Assembly: GCF_032884065.1 (NCBI RefSeq)
Contig: NC_088863.1
Location: 44,827,687-44,891,686 of the forward strand
DNA: 64,000 nt
Reading direction: 5' to 3'
DNA from: Artemia franciscana
Taxonomy: Eukaryota; Arthropoda; Branchiopoda; Anostraca; Artemiidae
Below are positions 36,852-38,578 of this stretch, piece after piece. Position 1 is the first letter of the stretch. Every line of letters begins with the position of its first letter. The notes beneath the pieces are model-generated. The model saw only the letters and a program-made list of their open reading frames with translations. It did no database searches and had not been told where the DNA came from. A program made the translations under genes and the position numbers.

Positions 36852-38578
36852 CAGTTTTCAAACAGTTCGTGGTAACGAACTGTAGTAAGGAGCGACCCGG
36901 CTCAATAGTAACCAAAACTCTAAAAAATGGAATTTTGATACCAATAGCTATATCAAAAGAATCGCATTTTTATGCTGGTTTTAAATATATAAGTTTCATC
37001 AAGTTTAGTCTTACCCATCAAAAGTTACGAGCCTGAGAAAATTTGTGTTATTTTAGAAAATAGGGGGAAACACCCCCTAAAAGTCATAGAATCTTAACGA
37101 AAATCACACCATCAGATTCAGCGTATCAGAGAACCCTATTGTAGAAGTTTCGAGGTCCTATCTACAAAAATGTGGAATTTTGCATTTTTTGCCAGAAGGC
37201 AGATCACGGATGCGTGTTTATTTGTTTTTTTGTTTTTTTGTTGTTTTTTTTTTTCCCCAGGGGTGATCGTATCGACCCAGTTGTCCTAGAATGTTGCAAG
37301 AGGGCTCATTCTAACGGAAATGAAAAGTTCTAGTGCCCTTTTTAAGTGACCAAAAAAATTGGAGGGCACCTAGGCCCCCTCCCACGCTAATTATTTTCCC
37401 AAAGTCAACGGATCAAAATTCTGAGATAGCCATTTTATTCAACGTAGTCGAAAAACCTTATAACTATGTCTTTGGGGACGACTTACTCCCCCACAGTCCC
37501 CGTGGGAGGGGCAACAAGCTACAAACTTTGACCTGTGCTTACATATAGTAATGGTTATTGGGAAGTATGCAGGCGTTTTCAGGAGGATTTTATTGGTTGG
37601 GGGGAGGGGTTGAGAAGAGGGGGATATGCTGGGGGAACTTTCCATCGAGAATTTGTCATGGGAGAAGAAAACTTCCATGGAGGGGGAGCAGGATTTACTA
37701 GCATTATTTAAAAAAAATTAAAAATAAATGTGAAAAAGCTTTTTCAGCTGGAAGTAAGGAACAGCAATAAAACTTAAAACAAACAGAAATTATTAACCAT
37801 ATAAGGGGCTCACCTCCTTATGATACCTAGCTCTTTACGCTAAAGTATTTTTAGTAATTTCAACTATTTATTCTACGGCTTTTGTGATTCAGGGGTCATT
37901 CTTAATGAATTGGGATAAAATTTAAGCTTTAGTGTAAAGAGTGAGGTACTGACGATGGAGCGAATCCCCTCATATATGTAATAAAAACATGAGAATACAA
38001 AAGTTCTTTACGTAAGCTAATTTATAAGTTACGTAAATGTTTTACCAATAAAAAGATTCGTAAAAAATTAAAAGTTCTAGTTGCCTTTTTAATTAACCAA
38101 AAAATCGGAGGGCAACTAGGCTTCGCCCCCGCTCTTTTTTTCTCAAAATCATTCGATCAAAATTATGAGAAAGCCATTTAGCCCCCCCCCAAAAAAATGC
38201 AAATTTCGTTTTGATTATTCCTCTGCGGAGAGCCAAAATCAAAACATGCATTGATTCAAAAACGTTCAGAAATTAAATAAAAAAAACGAGTTTTTTTAAC
38301 TGAAAGTAAGGAGCGACATTAAAACTTAAAACGCACAGAAATTACTTCGTATATGAAAAGGGCTGCTTCCTCATCAACGCCCCGCTCTTTACGCTAAAGT
38401 TTTTTACTGTTTTAAAAAGAAGAATTGAGAGAAAGAGTCAAACTTTAGTGTAAAGAGCGGGGCGTTGATGAGGAAGCAGCCTCTTTCATATACGAAGTAA
38501 TTTCTGTGCGTTTTAAGTTTTAATGTCGCTCCTTACTTTCAGTTAAAAAAACTCGTTTTTTTTTATTTAATCACAGTT
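36852..38578 (+). mobile_element. Complete F1 inverted-repeat element (1717 bp) with 5 bp target duplication
   Basis: CAGTT at 36852-36856 and 38574-38578 flanks the element (36857-38573). The left end is TTTCAAACAGTTCGTGGTAA with a small palindrome around CAGTTCGTGGTAACGAACTG. The right end carries the inverted AGTAAGGAGCGAC block, so AACTG-AGTAAGGAGCGAC acts as an imperfect terminal repeat. Two internal palindromes lie at about 37790-37985 and 38278-38563. No transposase is encoded, so it depends on proteins supplied elsewhere. A cut-and-paste superfamily is likely but unassigned. Confidence 0.85.
38278..38563. repeat. Terminal palindrome of the complete F1 element
   Basis: The arms are about 38278-38400 and 38441-38563 (about 123 nt each), with a 40 nt loop. 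For example, 38361-38380 and 38462-38481 are exact 20 nt reverse complements. The transcript or single strand could fold into a very long hairpin. Confidence 0.9.

Follow-up and report, generated by a model that had tools for sequence, protein, structure and literature searches.

Mirrored arm changes and inverted loops in the 3' palindrome of a Helitron-like element of Artemia franciscana suggest template switching in transposing lineages

In Artemia franciscana, the F1 palindrome forms the 3' end of a ~1.7-kb element, and its two arms seem to be rewritten mainly in the propagating lineage and hardly at all in resident copies. The rewriting is probably due to template switching at the 3' hairpin of this Helitron-like element, in a single-stranded or replicating form and in transposing lineages. 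The element was recognized in a 64,000-nucleotide stretch of contig NC_088863.1, here called the window, and the genome-wide pattern counts given below cover 1.27 Gb in 6,468 contigs.

The features of the element and its other copies in the window are collected in Table 1. When sampled loci were compared with 10 kb of the window, 16 other copies reached both ends of the element at 91–96% identity; in these, homology begins at 36858 and ends at ~38571. The element starts with TCAAACAGTTCG, forms a 5' hairpin with a stem of only 8 bp and carries 13-bp subterminal inverted repeats. At the 3' end, the arms of the palindrome measure 124 nt each, are 98% complementary and enclose a 37-nt spacer; folded as a single strand, the palindrome reaches –147.8 kcal/mol, compared with –30.75 kcal/mol (s.d. 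3.75) for 200 shuffled sequences. The element also contains an older, diverged relative of the terminal palindrome (window 37715-37984) and repeated 118-bp segments (37318 and 38065), as though a shorter ancestor had acquired its present 3' end through duplication. At another locus (L011:4795-5331), a second palindrome, partly truncated and lacking a body, immediately follows that of an element. The published annotation assigns 8.81% of the A. franciscana genome to rolling-circle transposons (Helitrons), according to the part of that report available to us (PMC11492255). Further repeats in the window include tandem arrays at 3033-4635 and 47027-47855 with units of 296 and 287 bp; their consensus units look related by eye, on opposite strands, and the arrays probably belong to one satellite-like family. 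An imperfect AC dinucleotide array of ~855 bp (22165-23019) probably accounts for the strong base skew at 22–24 kb.

Table 1. Positions of the element, its parts and further copies in the window
Feature	Position	Strand	Remarks
Putatively non-autonomous Helitron-like element, complete	36858..38570	+	Starts TCAAACAG, 3' end TTTAA; T at 38571
Small 5' hairpin ACAGTTCG-TGGTAA-CGAACTGT	36862..36883	+	Direct reading
5' subterminal repeat AGTAAGGAGCGAC	36884..36896	+	Inverse of 38525-38537; direct reading
Older diverged internal palindrome, left half (control)	37790..37853	+	64 aligned pairs with other half, 75% complementary
Older internal palindrome, right half (control)	37916..37984	-	Aligned pairs and arm matches
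3'-terminal palindrome including ATTAAAT/ATTTAAT edges	38272..38571	.	Arm alignment, motif check, folding
Body-proximal arm	38279..38402	+	Arm alignment
37-nt loop, standard orientation in this copy	38403..38439	+	
Terminal arm	38440..38563	-	Arm alignment
3' subterminal repeat GTCGCTCCTTACT	38525..38537	-	Within terminal arm; direct reading
Second complete copy, standard loop	17457..19152	+	
Diverged copy, loop inverted	59900..60776	+	Also in genome-wide inverted list (C1:44888155)
5'-truncated copy, loop inverted	62133..62506	-	
Palindrome with shortened right arm, own matched variants	7256..7512	+	
Damaged palindrome, left inner arm absent, TTGCTCC/GGAGCAA matched	55283..55560	.	

An initial annotation of the window had noted that the two arms of each palindrome match each other better than they match other copies. 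The motifs that it quoted and their mirror partners are all in place: CGCACAG at 38332-38338 and CTGTGCG at 38504-38510 are exact complements, as are 38361-38380 and 38462-38481, and the copies at 18.9, 62.1, 60.5 and 55.4 kb carry variants of their own, each with a mirror partner (the 55-kb copy is damaged). From 304 arm matches we kept 87 near-complete pairs, and 86 copies after L011_5063, which has no body, was dropped; L079_64 was assigned the standard orientation by eye, and the sampled copies had mostly been picked for similarity to two window palindromes. Mean distances bear the observation out. Own arms differ by 5.7%, against 8.6–9.6% between copies (87 paired palindromes), and with two subfamilies held fixed (84 of the 86 copies) own arms differ by 3.84%; random reassignment of right arms to copies raises the figure to 5.31%, and the lowest of 2000 such shuffles gave 4.95%. 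Arm by arm, the observation needs qualifying: the own partner is nearest, or tied nearest, for only 29 of 174 arms, and the 54 cherries of an arm tree comprise 11 of own arms, 28 of same-side arms and 15 of opposite-side arms. Taken as the sole test, the arm tree speaks against the prediction that arms of one copy are sisters, without being decisive. In both tests the signal is obscured by mutations confined to one arm and by copies that are close relatives. Left and right arms do not fall into two lineages. Within the two subfamilies, same-side distances (4.6 and 5.7%) are hardly below opposite-side distances (4.9 and 5.8%), and the arms therefore do not have separate histories.

The origin of changes is more informative when read from a tree that is independent of the arms. 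Alleles present in many copies mostly occur in both arms (left, right and both: 39, 42 and 39; 41, 41 and 41; 40, 41 and 39), whereas one-copy alleles mostly occur in one (non-CpG: 45 left, 46 right, 6 both). Genome-wide, the CGCACAG allele is mirrored (C/C) in 2,158 copies and mixed (C/A) in 80, which agrees with copying between the arms. A tree was built from the element body only, for the 39 copies whose body reached 850 bp or more, and the arm changes were placed on its branches by parsimony, with columns 0–11 (A/T runs) omitted from the counts. Mirrored changes numbered 22, above every one of 1000 site permutations (mean 2.7, maximum 9). The older internal palindrome of these copies served as a control on this tree: 1 of its 166 changes (93 + 73) is mirrored, or 2 if any base counts, and the permutation mean of 2.9 exceeds the single change observed; with only 75% complementarity, its halves may have diverged too far for any switching. 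The excess of mirrored changes bears on the idea that subfamilies simply passed their variants on by descent, with parallel CpG decay and no copying between arms. Most mirrored variants are indeed subfamily variants, and CpG sites do yield some mirrored pairs. Descent transmits mirrored states, however, but does not create them; the changes arise at many sites and branches, far above the permutation level and also without CpG columns, and the two arms do not form lineages of their own. We regard pure descent as extremely unlikely.

The mirrored changes are unevenly spread over the tree. On internal branches, 16 left-arm and 16 right-arm changes include 10 that are the same event, so that 10 of 22 distinct changes are mirrored; on terminal branches, 73 left-arm and 91 right-arm changes include 12 shared ones, and 12 of 152 are mirrored (Fisher p = 3.3e-5). 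The difference persists when CpG columns are excluded (9 of 21 against 8 of 113, p = 1.2e-4) and when the outlier W_60487 is dropped (9 of 21 against 10 of 135, p = 1.0e-4), although the internal counts are small (22) and come from a poorly resolved tree. A further run without four copies (9 of 16 against 3 of 117) is not relied on, because those copies hold most of the mirrored terminal changes. We likewise set aside a difference in substitution rate on terminal branches, lower in the arms (0.66 and 0.83 per site) than in the body (1.32 per site), since similarity of the palindrome had guided the choice of copies. On the body tree, some mirrored changes occur twice, as if subfamilies had swapped sequence. 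Together with the 1 of 166 in the control, the contrast between internal and terminal branches indicates that the arms are rewritten in the propagating lineage.

The same contrast weighs against ordinary chromosomal gene conversion or template switching acting on resident copies at a steady rate, unlinked to transposition. Such a process is documented in chromosomal inverted repeats, as far as the accessible part of one study goes (PMC8604942), and the 12 mirrored terminal changes exceed the ~2.3 expected by chance, which leaves room for some correction of resident copies or for tree error. If the process ran steadily with time, however, mirrored changes should be at least as frequent on the long terminal branches as on the short internal ones. 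The opposite holds, with terminal branches five times longer on average (0.042 against 0.008), and we consider conversion of resident copies quite improbable as the main source. Since mirrored change is tied to the much shorter internal branches, switching most likely takes place in the transposition cycle, during which a rolling-circle element exists as a single strand with a 3' end able to fold. A rare allele gives a similar view of resident copies. A 27-base pattern places it on 157 arms, the first 100 of which contain 2 mirrored pairs; with a 17-base pattern for each arm, 6 copies in the whole genome carry it on both sides. As the patterns differ in length, the ratio of the two counts is rough, and truncated copies that lack a partner arm may account for some of the 157. 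Resident copies thus appear to undergo very little correction. The allele is the A-to-T change of L080 (non-CpG), considered as a private mirrored change that would prove conversion in a resident copy; this use was rejected, as the allele is recurrent rather than private and its recurrence may be due to chance.

Even in the propagating lineage, arm correction is not obligatory. Window position 38359 is an exception to mirroring, with 34 left, 12 right and 7 both (arms named by loop orientation); its mismatch is an A/G in 23 of 76 standard-orientation copies and has therefore gone uncorrected through many transpositions. Other recurring mismatches are those at 38382 (13 of 76 standard copies) and 38393 (7 of 76). 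The proposal that one arm is regularly copied from the other, for instance by hairpin-templated repair during transposition or replication, is thus upheld in part: mirroring is concentrated on internal branches, whereas the mismatches inherited by many copies, and the 140 of 152 terminal-branch changes that are unmirrored, show that the copying is not regular, and the molecular step is inferred. The initial annotation did not notice the inverted loops, the two-bodied palindromes or the place of the palindrome at one end of a larger element.

Selection for a perfect hairpin could also concentrate mirrored changes on internal branches, if the hairpin served as transposition terminator and one-arm mutants multiplied only after a matching change, supplied by rare conversion or a second mutation. 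The 3' hairpin of Helraiser signals termination, and deleting it lowers efficiency, as stated in the portion of the report at hand (PMC4778049). Against selection, one-arm intermediates are nearly absent at some subfamily sites (41 left, 41 right and 41 both at one), mirrored changes include A<->C transversions, which lack a wobble intermediate, and the mismatch at 38359 has been inherited by many copies. Moreover, selection alone makes neither of two further products described below, the loop inversions and the two-bodied palindromes. Selection is conceivable as the explanation, though unlikely.

When copies were oriented by their loops and the body was then located, 10 of the 86 sampled ones proved to carry a loop that is inverted with respect to the body. 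Exact patterns found 853 inverted and 6,868 standard places genome-wide. The two patterns tolerate slightly different lengths, with a few more short loops lost from the standard count, and the same two-bodied palindrome can match both, so that 853 of 7,721 is approximate; one palindrome is in fact present in both lists. Among the inverted matches listed, several different subfamily arms were recognized by eye, and mirrored variants are common to the inverted copies L036 and L042 and the standard copy L040. Inversion has therefore happened repeatedly. The arm mismatches follow the loop. At 38359 the order is A/G in 23 and G/A in 4 standard copies, compared with 1 and 4 inverted copies (p = 0.009, from 5 inverted copies); at 38393 it is G/A in 7 and A/G in 1 standard copies, compared with 0 and 3 (p = 0.02, from 3 inverted copies). 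The inverted segment therefore takes in at least part of the arms. The outer A/T runs, considered for placing the breakpoints, proved too noisy. In the available part of a survey of bird microinversions, no link to stem-loops was found at two hotspots (PMC3123225), so loop inversion at hairpins appears to be no general rule.

Long palindromes are hard to sequence, and an assembly artefact might make arms alike or reverse loops. PacBio long reads, 10x linked reads and Hi-C all went into the published assembly, according to the accessible portion of its description (PMC11492255). An artefact should mirror private changes too, yet 140 of the 152 changes on terminal branches are unmirrored, and the loop inversions recur with subfamily-specific arms. 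We find this source hardly credible.

In some places the palindrome has body sequence on either side. The body motif CGTTCAGAAATTAA occurs on both sides of a palindrome at 70 places genome-wide, and a motif ~20 bp further out does so at 74; among the matches listed in the range common to both, 20 of 43 places with the nearer motif are also in the further-out list. None of the 86 sampled copies is a clear two-bodied palindrome. Three two-bodied palindromes lie ~9 kb apart on one chromosome (C4:927820, 936780 and 945747), and the same three appear among the mixed C/A copies; the element seems to have been copied as part of a local duplication. Exact head-to-tail junctions are found at 211 places genome-wide, and one junction was read directly at L020; such junctions could also arise when a new copy lands on the T that follows an old one.

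The ends of the element were described from 27 copies that passed a filter: the start had to resemble CAAACAG, and the end to resemble TTAA with T or C after it. Copies without such ends were dropped. The filter set the CAAACAG-like 5' ends, with the preceding T not part of it, and T precedes CAAACAG (or CAAACTG) in all 27, giving a 5'-TC. TC is preceded by A in 20 copies, by T in 6 and by G in 1. The 3' end is TTTAA in 25 of the 27, under a filter on TTAA-like ends; in 19 rows read without an end filter, T follows TTTAA or its variants in all 19 and no CTRR end occurs. By eye and without a score, no target-site duplication is visible in the flanks of the 27 copies. Rejoining the flanks of the nested insertion L019 gives, by eye, an empty site of five T. 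If the first T is taken as host sequence, the element has a T on both sides, as for insertion within TT, but that first T is preceded by A in 20 of 27. The flanks of L019:4891-6604 and L028:3532-5247 resemble, by eye, one T-run site within other family copies, revealing the empty site and hinting at a preferred target inside the element.

We call the element Helitron-like and putatively non-autonomous. As far as the available text on Helraiser goes (PMC4778049), it shares with canonical Helitrons the 5'-TC, the lack of a visible target duplication, a 3' hairpin and head-to-tail junctions; insertion between A and T may be shared too, as most copies have A in front and T behind. It is not filed as a canonical Helitron because the CTRR end is absent, its 3' end being TTAA. 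Its 124-bp stem runs to the very end, whereas Helraiser has a 19-bp palindrome 11 nt inside. With Helentron-associated HINE/DINE-1 elements it shares, on the parts of that study accessible here (PMC4067079), subterminal inverted repeats of 12–13 bp, a small 5' inverted repeat, a 3' palindrome and T-rich insertion sites. It is not filed as a HINE because its 3' palindrome is far longer (arms of 124 nt, compared with 5–10 bp in mite HINEs); it also has mostly A (20 of 27) before the flanking T. LIMP palindromes of an algal mitochondrial genome are likewise repeated, with a short fixed loop in both orientations, but comprise 19 copies with arms of pentanucleotide repeats and no transposon end; the portion of the report consulted (PMC4524435) does not deal with arm homogenization.

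Our preferred reading, template switching in the transposition cycle, would account for these products as follows. In a single strand, or in a strand under copying, the 124-nt arms would fold back. A polymerase meeting the long hairpin could switch template to the other arm and would usually switch back. A switch with return would homogenize the arms, giving a mirrored change, or would invert the loop together with inner arm sequence; a switch without return would send the polymerase back along the body and place body on both sides. After insertion, the copy would decay by ordinary one-arm mutation. Products of all three kinds, homogenized arms, inverted loops and two-bodied palindromes, are present. 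That the molecular step is template switching and that it happens in the transposition intermediate are both inferred; neither such an intermediate nor an autonomous partner was seen in the sequences analysed.

Parvovirus-type terminal hairpins occur in flip and flop orientations and yield tail-to-tail dimers, and rolling-hairpin (parvovirus-like) replication is marked by about equal flip and flop and by hairpins at both ends. The 3' hairpin of the element could, by analogy, be a replication primer, its folded end priming the second strand in a rolling-hairpin-like cycle of a cellular Helitron-like element. If so, flip and flop of the loop, arm correction and tail-to-tail dimers would be normal products rather than accidents. 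The element differs from parvoviruses in having a long hairpin at one end only, the 5' end forming just the 8-bp stem; about one copy in nine is inverted (10 of 86 sampled; 853 against 6,868 genome-wide), and the 211 exact head-to-tail junctions outnumber the 70–74 two-bodied palindromes. We regard priming by the hairpin as quite unlikely.

Template switching itself has precedents. Arm homogenization and spacer inversion by this route are known in yeast genes (Abraham and Hazkani-Covo 2021, PMC8604942), and in RNA genes compensatory changes occur with loop inversions, the inversions being rare (PMC8794818). To judge from the accessible parts of both reports, those cases and ours have in common identical arms with an inverted spacer, made by one process of polymerase strand switching. 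They concern short stems in genes and RNAs, whereas here a 124-bp stem forms a transposon end in thousands of copies, with mirroring concentrated in the propagating lineage. In the literature searched, which leaves most subscription papers outside, no report describes Helitron-type ends with homogenized arms or inverted loops. For short inverted repeats the mechanism is established, and the transposon-linked case looks like a new form of it.

How long stems keep their pairing is an old question, usually answered by compensatory selection. With thousands of hairpin copies whose bodies provide pedigrees, mirrored changes, one-arm changes, inversions and failed returns can be counted in one genome, and events at the time of transposition can be separated from those in resident copies. 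The element thereby provides indirect evidence, from sequence only, on the single-stranded phase of rolling-circle transposition.
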